Origin: Pseudomonadota bacterium
GTDB taxonomy: Bacteria; Pseudomonadota; Alphaproteobacteria; Rhizobiales; Rhizobiaceae
Direction of reading: 5' to 3'
DNA: 12,806 nt
Assembly (NCBI GenBank): GCA_023444445.1
Contig: JAEXMK010000220.1
Span: 1 to 12,806, forward strand
Shown here: positions 9,080 to 12,806 of the stretch, piece by piece
How positions within the stretch are numbered: position 1 is the first letter of the stretch
Layout of the letters: each line of letters starts with the position of its first letter
Translations under genes and position numbers: made by a program
The notes under the pieces: model-generated
The model's database searches: none
The model's input: the letters and a program-made list of their open reading frames with translations, nothing else
What the model was told of the DNA's origin: nothing

Positions 9080-10075
9080 TCAGGCCCTTGCCGGGCTCAC
9101 TTCCACCGTCACATGCGAGAGTTCATGTATGGCGGCAAGTTTCTGCTTATAAAATGCCGGCGCTTTCGGCGCCTGCGAATGGATCGCCACGATGGCCGCG
9201 TGGTGGCCGGGGCCTACCTGCCAGACATGCAGGTCGGTGATGCGGTCTTCTTCCGTTTCCACGGTTTCACGGATTTCCTGCGGCAGGTCGTCCGCCAGCG
9301 GCACCGCATCGACAAGCGTCGTTGCCGTGGAGCGAATGAGCCCCCATGACCAGCGGGCGATGACCAGACCGCCGACGATTCCCATCAGCGGGTCGAGAAA
9401 GTTCCAGCCGTTCCACTTTCCGAGCAGCAGCGCGACGATCGCAAGGACCGAGGTCAGCGCATCCGCCAGCACATGCAGATAGGCGGCGCGCAGATTATTG
9501 TCCCGCCCGCCTTTTGCACCATGCTCCGCATGCGAACCGTGATCGTGATGGGCATGTGAACCGTGGGCGTGGCCATGCCCGTGTCCATGCCCATGCCCAT
9601 GATCGTGGTGATGTTCATCCTTCAACAGCAGGGCGCTGACGAGATTGACCGCAAGACCGATGACAGCGACGAGAATCGCCTGGTTGAAATCGATTTCGAC
9701 GGGGCTGATGAGGCGCATGCCGCTTTCGACGGCAATCAGCAGCGCCACGACCGCAAGCACGACAGCGCTGGCAAAACCGGCGAGATCGCCGAACTTGCCG
9801 GTACCGAAGCTGAAGCGCGGATTGCGCGCCTCGCGCCTTGCATAGAGATAAGCGAGCGCCGAAATCAGCATCGCGCCCGCATGGGTGGACATATGCCATC
9901 CGTCCGCCGTCAGCGCCATGGAGCCGAACCAGTGTCCGGCGACGATCTCCGCCACCATCATGACGGTGGTCAATGCGATGACCATCCAGACGCGCCTTTC
10001 ATTGCGCTCATGATTCTGGCCGAGATAAATATGGTGGTGCTCCGCCGTGGCGAAAGGTTCGTAAGTCGTCGTCAT
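9080..10075 (-). CDS. dmeF: Cation diffusion facilitator DmeF, cobalt/nickel efflux
   Basis: A 331-residue inner-membrane cation diffusion facilitator that exports divalent metals, chiefly Co and Ni in characterised DmeF, by proton antiport. It has six predicted membrane segments, with TM2 carrying TADGWHMSTH (D58, H61, H65) and TM5 carrying HVLAD (H201, D205). The TM2 motif has His where zinc-type CDFs such as ZitB have the second Asp, a DmeF-type trait. The N-terminus has a His cluster (HHH at 13-15, H22). A cytoplasmic loop between TM4 and TM5 (about 155-185) contains 16 His in Gly-His repeats, a likely metal buffer. A C-terminal cytoplasmic domain (about 255-331) follows. The ATG at 10075 has GAGAGGA about 9 bases upstream. 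It is the second gene of dmeRF, 73 bases after dmeR. Confidence 0.92.
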   Translation of the reverse strand: MTTTYEPFATAEHHHIYLGQNHERNERRVWMVIALTTVMMVAEIVAGHWFGSMALTADGWHMSTHAGAMLISALAYLYARREARNPRFSFGTGKFGDLAGFASAVVLAVVALLIAVESGMRLISPVEIDFNQAILVAVIGLAVNLVSALLLKDEHHHDHGHGHGHGHGHAHGSHAHHDHGSHAEHGAKGGRDNNLRAAYLHVLADALTSVLAIVALLLGKWNGWNFLDPLMGIVGGLVIARWSWGLIRSTATTLVDAVPLADDLPQEIRETVETEEDRITDLHVWQVGPGHHAAIVAIHSQAPKAPAFYKQKLAAIHELSHVTVEVSPARA

Positions 10076-10112
10076 GTCGCTAATCCTCTCAACTCAACCC
10101 GTCTTTCAACTC

Positions 10113-10139
10113 TGCCGGCCTCTCTTCATTCCGCCGGCA
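10113..10139 (-). other. Weak inverted repeat in the dmeR-dmeF gap
   Basis: TGCCGGC at 10113-10119 and GCCGGCA at 10133-10139 are a perfect 7-bp inverted repeat with a 13-base loop. It could moderate dmeF expression or mRNA processing, but it has no T run and may be incidental. Confidence 0.3.
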
Positions 10140-10148
10140 TGCACCGAT

Positions 10149-10421
10149 TCACCGGATGTAGGTCTTCAGCACCTGGGCCAGCTCTTCCGCCGCCCGCGCC
10201 CGCTCATCTTCATTTTCAGCATGCACGACATGTTCGTGCAGATGCTCCTGCATCACCTCTCCCGTCAGGCCTGAAAGCGCGCCGCGCACCGAAGCGAGCA
10301 ATTGCAGCACCTCGCCGCAGGGCTTGGCATCATCAAGCGCACGCTCCACCGCCTCCATCTGCCCTTTCAGGCGGCGGATGCGGGCAAGCAGCTTGTCCTT
10401 GTTGCGGATCGTATGGGACAT
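10149..10421 (-). CDS. dmeR: Metal-sensing repressor DmeR (RcnR/CsoR/FrmR family)
   Basis: A 90-residue all-helical cytosolic repressor of the RcnR/CsoR family, expected to bind the dmeRF operator and release it on Ni or Co. The family N-terminus is seen: MSHTIRNKDKLLARIRRLKGQMEAVERAL. Candidate metal ligands are H3, C35 (in DDAKPCGEVLQLL), H60 and H64 (in EHLHEHVVHA), matching the His-Cys-His-His set of RcnR-type sensors. The ATG at 10421 is chosen because GAGG lies 6 bases upstream and the residues before it do not resemble the family. It is the first gene of the dmeRF operon and lies 10 bases from its operator. The size is normal for the family. Confidence 0.9.
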   Translation of the reverse strand: MSHTIRNKDKLLARIRRLKGQMEAVERALDDAKPCGEVLQLLASVRGALSGLTGEVMQEHLHEHVVHAENEDERARAAEELAQVLKTYIR

Positions 10422-10430
10422 GAGCACCTC

Positions 10431-10456
10431 ATATACTATAGGGGGGTATAGTATAT
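10431..10456. promoter_or_regulatory. DmeR operator (10-bp arms around G6/C6)
   Basis: A perfect inverted repeat ATATACTATA - G6 - TATAGTATAT (10431-10440, 10441-10446, 10447-10456). RcnR-type repressors recognise AT-rich or TACT-type arms flanking a run of six G or C, and the DmeR box described in Agrobacterium is, as I recall, of this form. The site covers the -10 region of dmeR. Confidence 0.85.
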
Positions 10457-10476
10457 TGCTGTTATTTTTTGCGCAA
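10448..10476 (-). promoter_or_regulatory. Predicted dmeRF promoter overlapping the operator
   Basis: On the minus strand TTGCGC (10476-10471), 17 bases, then TACTAT (10453-10448) gives a sigma70-like promoter whose -10 lies inside the right operator arm, so bound DmeR would block it. Confidence 0.6.
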
Positions 10477-10550
10477 GGCGAGCATGACGCAATCTTCGCG
10501 AATGTTTCGGACCTTAAAAATGGTCCATCAGAACTAGGGGACTCACAGTC

Positions 10551-10898
10551 ATGACGACTATCGCACCAACCAGCAGCATCAATTTCGCCTCTCCCGTCCG
10601 CGGCATCGCGCCTGCGCATAACCGGGAGAGCCAGTCAACCACCGAGGCTTTGCAGGAGCTGACTCGGGCGGCCCATCGCGCCATTTCGGTGGCAGGCAAT
10701 GTCGCCACCACCGTCGCTCCGCTCGCCGGTGCCTCCGCGAGCCTGGCTGCTGCTCTCTGGAACATGGACAGCGGCGCCTCCGCCTCCACTGGCGCCAATG
10801 CTGAGGTGGCCGCTTCCGCCCAGCCGGATATGGCAAGCCTCGAATCGCAGATTCTGAAGGCACTGGCCCAGGCGCTTGGCGTCAGCGACGCCGCTTAA
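10551..10898 (+). CDS. Hypothetical Ala-rich protein, divergent from dmeR
   Basis: I do not recognise this 115-residue protein. It is rich in Ala, Ser and Thr, with no Cys and no signal peptide. A probable helix is TEALQELTRAAHRAISVAG (31-49), then a hydrophobic low-complexity stretch VATTVAPLAGASASLAAALW (51-70), a Gly/Ser/Ala linker, and a C-terminal helix MASLESQILKALAQALGV (94-111). The pattern of two amphipathic helices suggests self-association or membrane contact, but no function can be assigned. The ATG at 10551 has AGGGG 10 bases upstream. It shares a 129-base upstream region with dmeR, so it might respond to the same metals. The MerR gene follows on the same strand 60 bases later. 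GGACC/GGTCC at 10509-10526 is a small dyad in its leader. Confidence 0.6.
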   Translation: MTTIAPTSSINFASPVRGIAPAHNRESQSTTEALQELTRAAHRAISVAGNVATTVAPLAGASASLAAALWNMDSGASASTGANAEVAASAQPDMASLESQILKALAQALGVSDAA

Positions 10899-10923: not shown

Positions 10924-10950
10924 CCATATCTCTAGAGACTGGAGATATGG
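10924..10950. promoter_or_regulatory. MerR-type dyad operator for the downstream regulator
   Basis: CCATATCTC (10924-10932) and GAGATATGG (10942-10950) form a perfect 9-bp inverted repeat with a 9-base spacer. A TTGAAC at 10904-10909 lies upstream as a possible -35. The length and symmetry fit a MerR-family operator and suggest autoregulation. It overlaps an in-frame ATG at 10947, which argues that translation starts at 10959 instead. Confidence 0.65.
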
Positions 10951-10958
10951 AGAAAGCC

Positions 10959-11372
10959 ATGCTGTCCATCGGTGAACTGTCGAAACGCACCGGCGTCAAG
11001 GTGCCGACGATCCGCTATTACGAGCAGATGGGCCTCATCCGCGAGGCGGATCGTTCGGATGGCAACCAGCGCCGTTACGAAAAATCTGACCTCGAAAGGC
11101 TGGCCTTCATCCGCCATGCGCGCGATCTCGGCCTGAACATCGAGGCCATCCGTGAGCTGCTCGCGCTCAGCCAGCACCGGCAGATGCCCTGCGAGGGTGC
11201 TGATCGCATCGCCGCCGAGCATCTTGCCCATGTGCGCGAGAAGATTGCCAGCCTGAAGAAGCTGGAACACGAGCTGGAACGCATCGTCTCCCATTGCCAC
11301 GGCCATTCGATCGAGGATTGTTATGTCATCCGCGCGCTTTCCAACCATGGCATGTGCGAGGGCGAGCATTGA
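10959..11372 (+). CDS. MerR-family heavy-metal-responsive transcriptional regulator
   Basis: A 137-residue cytosolic regulator: winged helix-turn-helix (about 1-70, with MLSIGELSKRTGVKVPTIRYYE and DGNQRRY), dimerisation helix (about 80-112) and a C-terminal metal loop. Likely ligands are C78 at the head of the dimer helix, C113, H114, H116 and C121 in SHCHGHSIEDC, and C133 with H137 at the end. A Cys at position 78 marks sensors of divalent ions (ZntR/CadR/PbrR/MerR type); monovalent sensors such as CueR have Ser there. The exact metal is unclear. The ATG at 10959 is chosen over 10947 because GGAG (10949-10952) sits 6 bases upstream and the earlier ATG lies within the operator. No cognate P-type ATPase is adjacent, so its target may be elsewhere or may be a neighbour here. 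Confidence 0.85.
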   Translation: MLSIGELSKRTGVKVPTIRYYEQMGLIREADRSDGNQRRYEKSDLERLAFIRHARDLGLNIEAIRELLALSQHRQMPCEGADRIAAEHLAHVREKIASLKKLEHELERIVSHCHGHSIEDCYVIRALSNHGMCEGEH

Positions 11373-11386
11373 GCCGACAACCGGGC

Positions 11387-11416
11387 TTGACAGATGACGG
11401 ATTCGGGCGCATTGCA
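11387..11416 (+). promoter_or_regulatory. Candidate promoter of the attenuator-GNAT-DJ-1 operon
   Basis: TTGACA at 11387-11392 is an exact -35 hexamer. With 18 bases of spacing the -10 would be ATTGCA (11411-11416), a poor match. The -35 lies at -36 relative to the leader ATG at 11423, so transcription may begin at or next to that ATG, giving a leaderless mRNA as described for the Sinorhizobium trp leader. Confidence 0.45.
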
Positions 11417-11422
11417 TCTCTC

Positions 11423-11476
11423 ATGATCAACGAACGCGCACCCATCTCCTGCTCGTACTTTTGGGCCTTCCTTTAA
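11423..11476 (+). CDS. 17-residue leader peptide of a transcription attenuator
   Basis: The short frame MINERAPISCSYFWAFL ends one base before the antiterminator region. It has no clear Shine-Dalgarno, so it may be leaderless. Its last codons are Ser, Tyr, Phe, Trp, Ala, Phe, Leu, so shortage of charged aromatic tRNAs, or an inhibitor that stalls ribosomes there, would leave the next RNA segment free. GCCTT at 11465-11469 can pair with AGGGC at 11476-11480. A ribosome stalled on the Tyr-Phe-Trp codons would cover the first of these. Reading it as a real peptide rests on its fixed position ahead of a terminator/antiterminator; I do not know this leader from the literature. Confidence 0.6.
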   Translation: MINERAPISCSYFWAFL

Positions 11477-11477
11477 G

Positions 11478-11512
11478 GGCGGCTCGACAGATCATATTGT
11501 CAACAAGCCGCC
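11478..11512 (+). promoter_or_regulatory. Antiterminator stem of the attenuator
   Basis: GGCGGCT (11478-11484) pairs perfectly with AGCCGCC (11506-11512), enclosing a small GACA/TGTC hairpin (11486-11489, 11498-11501). This pairing uses the same AGCCGCC that forms the left side of the terminator, so the two structures exclude each other. Confidence 0.65.
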
Positions 11513-11534
11513 GTCAGGCGGCTTTGTTGTTTTC
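11505..11534 (+). terminator. Rho-independent terminator (attenuator) before the GNAT gene
   Basis: AAGCCGCC (11505-11512), loop GTCA, GGCGGCTT (11517-11524): a perfect 8-bp stem followed by the T-rich TGTTGTTTT. It ends about 40 bases before the GNAT ATG, so it can stop transcription into that operon. It could also end transcripts from the MerR gene. Confidence 0.85.
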
Positions 11535-11575
11535 AAACGTCCTGACGGCACCGATAAGACCAAAGGACCGAAAAA

Positions 11576-12064
11576 ATGACCGAAGATAGCTCCCTCACAT
11601 TGGAAAGACCGCCCGTCGTCATCATTCGCGGCGCGCGCAAGACCGATCTGCCCGAACTCAATGAAATGATCACGCTGCTTGCCTCCTACCATGGCGATGC
11701 GGCGGCGATCACGCCGGCTAAGCTTGAGCGCGACCTGTTCGGCGCCCTGCCCTGGGTGCATGGTCTCGTCGCCGAAGCCGATGGTGCTCTGATCGGCTAC
11801 GCGCTGCTTCTGCCGCTCTACAGGGCGCAGGAAGGCCGGCGCGGGCTGGAGCTGCATCATCTCTTCGTGCGTGACGGTCATCGCGGCCATGGCACCGGCC
11901 AGCATCTGGTTTCCCGCGCTCGCGATATCGCCAAGCGTCTCGGCTGCGACTATCTTTCCGTCAGCGCCACGACGGGCAATGTCGCGGCGCATCGTTTCTA
12001 CGAAAACATGGATTTCGCGCCGCGTCCGGTTACCGGCATGCGCTACATGCAGTCCATCGCCTGA
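11576..12064 (+). CDS. GNAT-family N-acetyltransferase
   Basis: A 162-residue cytosolic acetyl-CoA-dependent acetyltransferase with one GNAT domain (about 15-160). Motif A is clear: LELHHLFVRDGHRGHGTGQHL, with R103-G-H-G-T-G108 as the pyrophosphate loop. Motif B is NVAAHRFYENMDF (135-147), where Y142 could be the general acid. By eye the layout resembles the diamine/thialysine acetyltransferase (SSAT-like) branch, but the substrate could also be another amine, an amino acid or an antibiotic; uncertain. The ATG at 11576 has AAGGA 8 bases upstream. It follows the attenuator and precedes the DJ-1 gene by 21 bases, so the pair is probably one operon under translation-sensitive control. Confidence 0.85.
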   Translation: MTEDSSLTLERPPVVIIRGARKTDLPELNEMITLLASYHGDAAAITPAKLERDLFGALPWVHGLVAEADGALIGYALLLPLYRAQEGRRGLELHHLFVRDGHRGHGTGQHLVSRARDIAKRLGCDYLSVSATTGNVAAHRFYENMDFAPRPVTGMRYMQSIA

Positions 12065-12085: not shown

Positions 12086-12652
12086 ATGACACGGATCGCC
12101 ATTGCGCTCGCACAGGATTTTGCGGACTGGGAGCCGGCGCTGCTCACTGCGGCGGCACGCAGCTATCTCGGCGTCGAGATCGTTTATGCGACCCCGGACG
12201 GGCGGCCGGTAACGTCGATGGGCGGGCTGAATGTAACACCGGATACATCCTATGATGCGCTCGATCCTGATAACATCGATGCGCTCGTCATTCCCGGCGG
12301 TCTCAGCTGGGAAAAGGGAACGGCTGTCGAACTTGGCGGGCTGGTGCAGCGCTTTCGCGAAAAGGACCGGCTGGTTGCCGGTATCTGTGCGGCGGCAAGC
12401 GCGCTGGCGGGAACTGGTATCCTGAACGATGTTGCCCATACCGGCAATTCGCTCGCCTCACACAAGGCCTATCCGGCCTATCGTGGCGATGGTCTTTATC
12501 GCGACCAGCCGAACGCGGTCAGCGATGGCGGCATCATCACTGCACCTGGCAGCGCGCCGGTGAGTTTTGCTGTGGAAATTCTGAAAAGCCTCGGCCTCTT
12601 TGGTCCGGAAGCTGAAGCGGAACTTCAGGTTTTTGCGGCGGAGCATCGGTAA
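12086..12652 (+). CDS. DJ-1/PfpI family (class I glutamine amidotransferase-like) protein
   Basis: A 188-residue cytosolic protein of the DJ-1/ThiJ/PfpI superfamily. The nucleophile elbow AGICAAASAL places C101 at the turn, with E16 near the N-terminus as the conserved partner acid and PGG at 70-72 after the third strand. This branch looks closest to the YdeA-type amidotransferase-like members, whose activity is often unknown. Stress protection, carbonyl or glyoxal detoxification and chaperone roles are reported across the family, but none can be assigned here. The ATG at 12086 has GGAG 6 bases upstream. It is the second gene of the attenuated operon, which suggests a shared role with the acetyltransferase, and it is followed by a paired palindrome. 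Confidence 0.85.
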   Translation: MTRIAIALAQDFADWEPALLTAAARSYLGVEIVYATPDGRPVTSMGGLNVTPDTSYDALDPDNIDALVIPGGLSWEKGTAVELGGLVQRFREKDRLVAGICAAASALAGTGILNDVAHTGNSLASHKAYPAYRGDGLYRDQPNAVSDGGIITAPGSAPVSFAVEILKSLGLFGPEAEAELQVFAAEHR

Positions 12653-12689: not shown

Positions 12690-12806
12690 CCTCATTCCTG
12701 TGCTTGTCACAGGAATCCAGTCAGCCCAAGTCCTTGGGCGGAAAGGAGTCTTCCCGCCGCGCAGACGCGCGTCGGCTGGATTCCTGTGACAAGCACAGGA
12801 ATGAGG
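12690..12806. repeat. REP-type element: perfect 31-bp inverted repeat with CTTGT loop
   Basis: Arms at 12690-12720 and 12776-12806 are perfect 31-bp reverse complements separated by 55 bases. Each arm folds alone: ATTCCTGTG-CTTGT-CACAGGAAT at 12694-12716 and ATTCCTGTG-ACAAG-CACAGGAAT at 12780-12802. The centre holds CCCAAG-TC-CTTGGG near 12725-12738. It lies 37 bases after the DJ-1 stop and may be the 3' end of that operon. The window ends at the arm, so it may continue. Confidence 0.9.

Follow-up and report, generated by a model that had tools for sequence, protein, structure and literature searches.

The window analysed here is a 12,806-nucleotide stretch of Rhizobiaceae DNA (contig JAEXMK010000220.1 of assembly GCA_023444445.1), and the element in question is a leader that precedes a GNAT N-acetyltransferase gene on its forward strand. 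The leader begins with an open reading frame (ORF) of 17 codons, M-I-N-E-R-A-P-I-S-C-S-Y-F-W-A-F-L (ATG at 11423, TAA at 11474–11476), which is followed by segments that can pair in alternative ways, a T-rich tail, and further complementary segments that reach the Shine–Dalgarno (SD) sequence of the GNAT gene (Table 1). The encoded acetyltransferase is identical over 162 residues to a protein in an Agrobacterium salinitolerans record (L061), which suggests that the window comes from Agrobacterium or a close relative. An earlier note on this DNA, made from its letters alone, had described the aromatic 17-codon frame, the segments GGCGGCT (11478–11484), AGCCGCC (11506–11512) and GGCGGCTT (11517–11524), and a T-rich tail before the GNAT gene, and all of these were found where that note had placed them. 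The comparisons presented below indicate that the leader is probably a ribosome-dependent attenuator in which a leaderless reading frame senses the charging of aromatic tRNAs and controls the GNAT gene. Its output is likely to be transcription termination together with closure of the GNAT ribosome-binding site.

Table 1. Features of the GNAT leader and of the genes around it (positions in the window).
Feature	Positions	Strand	Remark
-35 box TTGACA, putative leader promoter	11387..11392	+	TTGAC position conserved in loci
Weak -10 region CATTGC, 17 nucleotides (nt) 3' of the -35 box	11410..11415	+	Spacing across loci
Leader ORF MINERAPISCSYFWAFL, including stop	11423..11476	+	In 165/165 loci
5' end ATGATC, partner of GATCAT 11490–11495	11423..11428	+	Compensated in L182 and L187; weak or missing in some loci
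Control codons Tyr12 TAC, Phe13 TTT, Trp14 TGG	11456..11464	+	Aromatic codons in 165/165 loci
Segment 1, end of leader ORF, partner of 11481–11487 in the no-ribosome fold	11461..11467	+	
Segment 2 GGCGGCT, putative antiterminator with segment 3	11478..11484	+	
GATCAT, start-codon partner, loop between segments 2 and 3	11490..11495	+	
Segment 3 AGCCGCC	11506..11512	+	
Segment 4' GCCGTCAGG, terminator hairpin loop and inner arms	11510..11518	+	
Segment 4 GGCGGCTT, putative terminator hairpin with segment 3	11517..11524	+	
T-rich tail	11525..11534	+	
GTCCT, overlaps segment 5, possible partner of the GNAT SD	11539..11543	+	
Segment 5 CCTGACGGC, complement of segment 4'	11541..11549	+	
SD AGGAC of the GNAT gene	11564..11568	+	
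GNAT N-acetyltransferase, 162 amino acids, start ATG 11576	11576..12064	+	PF00583 61.4 bits, cutoff 20.7
DJ-1/PfpI protein, 188 amino acids, 3' of GNAT	12086..12652	+	PF01965 95.5 bits
MerR-type gene, 5' of the leader	10947..11372	+	
DmeF cobalt/nickel efflux gene and adjoining RcnR/FrmR-type repressor gene	9080-10619	-	DmeF 497.7 bits, cutoff 250

Conservation of the leader and its paired segments

A GNAT search of 394 genomes of the family (E ≤ 1e-25) gave 101 with a match, of which 85 were fetched and 16 left out; together with a second set, 80 kept of 214, these make up the 165 GNAT loci compared here, with some species present in both sets. Leader ORFs were located by patterns around the aromatic codons, and 13 loci missed at first were read by eye, after which the pattern was widened. 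A leader ORF of 16–17 codons is present in all 165 related loci, whose GNAT proteins fall to as low as 46% identity with that of the window, and the intergenic DNA of the window is matched in 39 of 39 genomes of the genus, which together argue that the leader is not a chance reading frame. The N-terminal part of the peptide is variable, and the aromatic group stands at a constant distance from the stop codon throughout. This group reads Y-F-W in 152 leaders, W-Y-F in 11 and another mix in two (R-Y-F-T-L-F-R in L187 and C-W-F-Y-Y-A-N-L-P in L194). By reading, a Sinorhizobium meliloti record and a Shinella record also carry the leader. A Paracoccus plasmid GNAT (L197 2853–2995; 39.6% identical) was likewise read as following a leader, which ends N-Y-Y-R-R-L-N and has a hairpin, a perfect 4':5 match (GCCGCAGG/CCTGCGGC) and a possible SD arm.

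A TTGAC begins 34–39 nt upstream of the leader ATG in 163 of the 165 loci (35 or 36 nt in 151); in the other two, the last TTGAC lies 11 nt upstream. No GGAG, GAGG or AGGA occurs within 14 nt upstream of the leader ATG in any of the 165 loci. The spacing of the TTGAC box and the lack of an SD-like motif suggest that transcription starts at or beside the ATG and that the leader ORF is leaderless, in which case the box would be the leader promoter. A scan of the window region for consensus sigma-70-like promoters found none. A start at the ATG would lie upstream of 11534; in the earlier note, a start downstream of that position was named as evidence against attenuation.

Pairing was assessed in an alignment (A1) of 57 sequences, made up of the window plus 56 representatives that share less than 90% identity; these remained of 69 after 13 near duplicates had been taken out by hand. 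Helix 3:4 is paired in 97.4% of cells, with three invariant pairs and one pair changed on both sides (six cells). Helix 2:3 is paired in 88.7% of cells and is mostly invariant, with an outer pair that covaries between U-A and C-G (13 of 57 cells) and an innermost pair that is formed in 28 of the 57 sequences. The slight covariation of both helices is attributable to arms that barely vary. These values support the proposal of the earlier note that 2:3 and 3:4 are mutually exclusive, and the conservation in homologous loci that it had suggested as a check extends to both the frame and the paired segments. The 112-nt leader is predicted to fold at -41.5 kcal/mol, compared with -27.8 (standard deviation 3.3) for shuffled sequences (z -4.2), and none of 200 shuffles was as stable. 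A scan of 2.2 kb for terminator-like sites returned seven, compared with 1.6 (standard deviation 1.6) in shuffles, and lists an 8-pair hairpin, which is weak evidence by itself.

The alignment also points to features beyond those of the earlier note, namely pairing of the terminator loop with 11541–11549 and possible closure of the SD, as well as pairing of the start codon with 11490–11495 and a hairpin that the leader tail can form with segment 2. Helix 4':5 is paired in 90% of cells, and four of its pairs are changed on both sides (GCCGTCAGG/CCTGACGGC, GCCATCAGG/CCTGATGGC and GCCGCAAGG/CCTTGCGGC are examples). Its cells changed on both sides number 32, compared with 9.7 in shuffled alignments, and its covariation score is 0.212 compared with 0.125, neither value being reached in 500 shuffles. 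The arm that overlaps segment 5 and the SD likewise match in many forms (GCGTCCT/AGGACGC, GCATCCT/AGGATGC, GCTTCCC/GGGAAGC, ACTTTCCC/GGGAAAGT, GGCTCCT/AGGAGCC and ACGTCCC/GGGACGT). Across the 57 sequences, segments match their own partners better than shuffled ones for the segment-5 arm and SD (14.1 vs 10.9), 4':5 (20.5 vs 15.8), the 5' end and loop (14.7 vs 13.6) and 1:2 (18.5 vs 15.8), each with 0 of 2000 shuffles as high. When only the 16 sequences under 65% identity were used, the shuffles as high numbered 0, 0, 1 and 1 of 2000, respectively. Where the 5' end of the leader differs, the start-codon pairing is compensated (ATGATGACG/CGTCATCAT in L182 and ATGACAG/TTGTCAT in L187); it is weak in several loci and absent from some of the sister leaders described below. 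This pairing with the loop between segments 2 and 3 may reduce re-initiation once the leader is complete, or give rise to a pseudoknot with 2:3.

At least six T are found within 9 nt after the hairpin arm in 158 of the 165 loci, the window included. This makes a purely translational attenuator, in which the hairpin is no terminator, an unlikely alternative, which draws its support from the other seven loci (L144, L147–L150, L155 and L160, all from one genus). These have 2–4 T in place of the U tract and keep the leader and hairpin, and the six of them that are in A1 show 5–7 contiguous arm:SD pairs. Control in this genus, if present, should be translational, so termination cannot be the sole output of the element. 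The termination switch of the earlier note is thus incomplete as a description, and the GNAT SD appears to be part of the switch.

The segments downstream of the hairpin also bear on a role in trans. A terminated leader of about 110 nt that starts with ATG would resemble rnTrpL of S. meliloti, which has the trpL ATG at its 5' end and works in trans according to the available passages of PMC7298713, and the GNAT leader could in principle act chiefly as such a small RNA (sRNA) or through a small peptide, like rnTrpL/peTrpL, with little effect on GNAT. We consider this very improbable, given that the leader precedes GNAT in all 165 loci and that segment 5 and the SD arm, which lie 3' of the terminator and change in step with the leader or the SD, are explained only by a role in cis.

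Control codons and sister leaders

Codon choice within the aromatic group differs from that of the genes it precedes. The Phe control codon is TTT in all 152 Y-F-W and all 11 W-Y-F leaders, whereas TTT makes up 47 of the 839 Phe codons of the GNAT genes at these loci, and the Tyr control codon is TAT in 138 of the 152 Y-F-W leaders, compared with 202 of 800 Tyr codons in the GNAT genes (Tyr12 of the window is TAC). The aromatic codon two places past Trp is TAC or TTC in 151 of these 152 leaders. This bias suggests that rare aromatic codons are placed where pausing would matter and common ones close to the stop, although a constraint on the RNA sequence could also explain it and the species compared are related rather than independent. 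Every GNAT leader that was read contains one Tyr codon or more.

Leaders of the same build were found in front of other genes with a covariance model (R1) constructed solely from 28 GNAT leaders of the family. Matches with E ≤ 0.01 occurred in 98 of 397 genomes of the order and in 32 of 289 genomes of the class; most were weak and, where read, the weak matches were ordinary terminators. Outside the family, eight matches reached E ≤ 4.2e-7, and all have aromatic-codon leaders. Four precede tyrS (Tyr-Tyr in L208, L209 and L211, Tyr-Phe in L229), two a prephenate-dehydrogenase-like gene (tyrA; Tyr-Tyr in L210 and L212) and two a GNAT gene (Trp-Tyr-Phe in L230 and L231). The genes at L208 and L229 score above the NCBIfam tyrS cutoff, those at L210 and L212 match prephenate dehydrogenase models below cutoff, and those at L209, L211 and L231 were assigned by reading. 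Among weaker matches, a Trp-Trp leader before a trpS gene that scores above cutoff (L234, E 1.3e-5) and a Tyr-Tyr leader before a prephenate-dehydrogenase-like gene (L214, E 8.9e-5) were picked out by reading, and L232 (E 1.1e-5) has a Tyr-Phe leader before a small S4-domain protein. Other weak matches were rejected. A further tyrA case (L238, E 8.2e-4) was not counted, as its frame opens with GTG and closes only at a TGA beyond segment 2; of the matches near 1e-5, L233 is an ordinary terminator and L213 a degenerate copy. From about 1e-4 down, the matches were read as mostly ordinary terminators, several of them behind an ORF ending EYYSR or EFYSR, which we take to be ribosomal protein S4.

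The control codons of the sister leaders on tyrS, tyrA and trpS correspond to the amino acid that each gene serves: no Trp codon occurs in any of the seven Tyr-gene leaders, and the trpS leader contains no Tyr codon. The control codons are equally far from the stop in GNAT and Tyr leaders, with Tyr-Tyr in the places of Tyr-Phe. All of these sister leaders belong to other alphaproteobacterial families. The earlier note had seen no link between the genes of this locus and amino-acid metabolism, a view that is weakened by sister leaders that precede aromatic amino-acid genes.

A second model (R2) includes most of the sister sequences and matches those by construction. The matches gained with R2 that read as aromatic leaders are L246, L250, L252 and L253 (E ≤ 1.4e-8), L256 (1.5e-5) and L269–L295; the matches L254 (1.3e-7), L255, L266 and L267 are false. 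L246, L250 and L252 precede GNAT genes, all but L252 judged by reading. At L232, L253 and L256, a Tyr-Phe or Trp-Tyr-Phe leader precedes the small S4-domain protein of about 90 amino acids (L253 and L256 by reading). L269–L295 are 27 new loci from the order of genome G987, in which 70 of 76 genomes have a match at E ≤ 1e-4; all 27 leaders read W-Y-F and 24 are followed by a GNAT-like ORF. Homologues of this GNAT bear Reyranella names, and the order is probably that of Reyranella. In the order of the tyrS genome G1011, only that genome of 43 has a match. The sister GNATs are distant from that of the window (BLASTP E 0.43 for L230 and 1e-6 for L252), which implies that the leader is better conserved than the enzyme relationship.

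These comparisons also bear on an erm- or tnaC-like leader, in which a C-terminal Y-F-W-x-[FY]-x peptide would arrest the ribosome together with a drug or metabolite. Such an arrest peptide would account for the fixed positions of Tyr, Phe and Trp in 152 of the 165 leaders and for an end three codons past Trp, and a GNAT would suit drug inactivation, as the enzyme weakly resembles aminoglycoside and streptothricin acetyltransferases, all far below cutoff. We nevertheless regard it as improbable. Residue order is not fixed, being W-Y-F in 11 loci and another mix in two, and the synonymous codon is (TTT in 152 of 152), which is unneeded at the peptide level even if an RNA constraint could explain it too. 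The Tyr-Tyr, Tyr-Phe or Trp-Trp leaders before tyrS, tyrA and trpS also weigh against it. Three observations thus favor sensing of charged tRNA over that of an antibiotic or nascent peptide: the sister leaders have matching codons, codon order is swapped between lineages, and codon choice is biased. Of the two signals offered in the earlier note, shortage of aromatic aminoacyl-tRNA is the one that these data favor, and they speak against antibiotics.

Proposed switch and the acetyltransferase

Folding was predicted with and without a ribosome, whose edge was assumed to lie 15 nt beyond the first P-site base. The ribosome-free leader is predicted to form 1:2, 3:4 (pairing probability P 0.998) and arm:SD (P 0.990), which corresponds to an OFF state, and a ribosome at the stop codon likewise gives 3:4 (P 1.0). 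When the RNA extends only to the end of segment 3, a ribosome at Tyr12 allows 2:3 to form (P 1.0, -17.7 kcal/mol), whereas nothing forms with the ribosome at the stop (-0.9 kcal/mol). For the full leader with a ribosome at Tyr12, the minimum-energy fold contains 2:3 and 4':5.

The predicted OFF state of the free RNA (1:2, 3:4 and arm:SD) argues against a general sensor of slowed or absent leader translation, which would respond to any inhibitor and in which the aromatic codons would be incidental. A ribosome held anywhere 5' of segment 2 would indeed free that segment, and the available passages of PMC12218461 describe a DUF1127 gene in S. meliloti that is controlled by an upstream ORF and responds to tetracycline, by a different and probably Rho-dependent mechanism. 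The constant distance of the aromatic codons from the stop in all 165 loci is not accounted for by such a sensor, and we give it little credence.

A mechanism is proposed for an attenuator responsive to aromatic tRNA charging, in which the RNA would begin at or beside the leader ATG. With sufficient charged Tyr-, Phe- and Trp-tRNA, the ribosome would reach the stop codon and, judging from the geometry, mask segment 2. Helix 3:4 would then form and transcription would terminate where a U tract is present; in any read-through RNA, the segment-5 arm could pair with the GNAT SD and keep the gene OFF. If any of the aromatic aminoacyl-tRNAs were short, the ribosome would pause at codons 12–14, and segment 2 would be free to pair with segment 3 before segment 4 is made. 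Formation of 2:3 would leave 4' free for segment 5, and 4':5 would compete with the SD helix, so that the SD could open and the gene be turned ON.

Several observations weigh against this mechanism. Helices 2:3 and 3:4 are too invariant for good covariation testing, and 3:4 slid by +1 has the higher covariation score (0.102 vs 0.074). The number of covarying 4':5 pairs is no higher than in shuffled alignments (201/500), the shuffle statistics ignore the kinship of the sequences, and at least five contiguous pairs are formed in only 36 of the 57 sequences for arm:SD and in 49 for 4':5. The full-leader ensembles keep 3:4 at P 0.77, 0.96 and 0.96 with the ribosome at Tyr12, Phe13 and Trp14, respectively, and the SD stays paired in all three (unpaired 0.06–0.07), in the Tyr12 ensemble partly with leader bases 47–52. 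The folding model thus does not reproduce SD opening, and the switch is weak at equilibrium. The Paracoccus relative carries Tyr-Tyr only, the L187 leader has no Trp codon, and one genus keeps the leader without a U tract. GNAT could also be transcribed from the upstream MerR gene, a MerR gene being present in 37 of the 80 GNAT loci in which neighbors were counted (1500 bases of flank). As 3:4 remains dominant at equilibrium, antitermination must be kinetic, that is, decided by folding during transcription, as is usual for such attenuators.

By sequence profile, the nearest solved relatives of the GNAT are diamine acetyltransferase 2 and thialysine acetyltransferase (PDB 2bei and 12jc), with E values of only 1.5e-12 and 1.1e-9, at which the substrate is not transferable to the enzyme of the window; phosphinothricin acetyltransferases are more distant solved relatives. 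The best 120 of 272 protein matches are named GNAT with no function given, and an AlphaFold model (mean predicted local distance difference test score 67.6) was not used further. These solved relatives of the GNAT act on small amines and amino-acid analogues, which, together with the Tyr codon in every GNAT leader, fits our guess that the enzyme protects against compounds that disturb aromatic tRNA charging. An unrecognized step of aromatic metabolism fits as well. A cyclophane RiPP (ribosomally synthesized and post-translationally modified peptide) pathway, with the leader as precursor peptide and the GNAT as HaaN (NF041716), was rejected (51.5 vs 250 bits; leader of 17 codons).

The earlier note had placed the DJ-1 gene in one operon with GNAT. 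Within 1500 bases of flank, a DJ-1 gene lies near GNAT in 36 of the 80 loci, and it is absent from the S. meliloti locus, and an operon with DJ-1 as a core unit was therefore rejected. A perfect 31-nt inverted repeat with arms 55 nt apart lies 3' of the DJ-1 gene (window 12690–12806) and presumably resembles a rhizobial intergenic mosaic repeat.

Comparison with known systems

No description of the element was found in the open-licence PubMed Central literature, with subscription papers and supplements outside that scope. Passages located by term in main texts on S. meliloti small proteins, S. meliloti and Agrobacterium transcripts, alphaproteobacterial RNA motifs and premature terminators do not mention it. 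SmelC165, a 116-nt S. meliloti sRNA considered for its length, was rejected, as the available part of PMC3927594 reports the family without A. tumefaciens members. Rfam RcsR1 (RF02552) has been reported from the same position as the S. meliloti trp attenuator, and membership of the GNAT leader in RcsR1/rnTrpL was rejected (14.7 bits vs a gathering score of 60, E 1.1). No Rfam family reached its gathering score in the window, in 20 related loci or in nine sister loci; the best sub-threshold match was RNAI, with 24 of 47 bits.

Classical attenuators of Proteobacteria (trp, phe, his, ilv and leu) have segments 1–4, with control codons just 5' of segment 2, and a ribosome at the stop codon masks that segment. 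The GNAT leader shares this layout but differs in its GNAT target and in a second relay to the SD. T-box riboswitches also sense tRNA charging and control tyrS and trpS in Gram-positive bacteria, whereas the GNAT leader would sense it by translation. We know of no aromatic-codon sensing by the vmlR leader of Bacillus subtilis, a Gram-positive bacterium. PMC9226507 reports both transcription attenuation and translation attenuation on that leader. It serves an antibiotic-induced ABCF gene, unlike the aromatic-codon GNAT leader. The trp attenuator of S. meliloti (trpL, rnTrpL), as described in the accessible passages of PMC7298713 and PMC7143759, is similar in its leaderless ORF at the RNA 5' end, its aromatic control codons and its choice between terminator and antiterminator. 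The GNAT leader differs from trpL in its gene, in having three aromatic amino acids, and in the extra segment 5 with SD pairing.

The proposed attenuator follows a known logic; it is new in having a leader with three amino acids, a GNAT target, a relay to the SD and one chassis used across different aromatic genes. A broader and distinctly more tentative reading places the GNAT leader as a branch within an old family of leaderless aromatic attenuators of Alphaproteobacteria. In this reading, a common RNA chassis is directed to different genes by codon choice, with Tyr-Tyr used for tyrS and tyrA, Trp-Trp for trpS and Tyr, Phe and Trp for GNAT, and a six-segment relay joins leader translation to termination and SD closure. 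The GNAT would then belong to an aromatic amino-acid regulon and might safeguard the charging of aromatic tRNAs, for instance through acetylation of amino-acid analogues or of synthetase inhibitors near plant roots. If this is true, Agrobacterium, Rhizobium, Sinorhizobium and their relatives have the acetyltransferase as a member of their aromatic amino-acid regulon, and its function is directly testable. The chain of alternative helices that reaches the SD would be a compact natural design for joint control of termination and translation, and a single Gram-negative attenuator chassis, retargeted among tyrS, tyrA, trpS and GNAT through two or three codons, would have a role comparable to that of T-boxes in Gram-positive bacteria.

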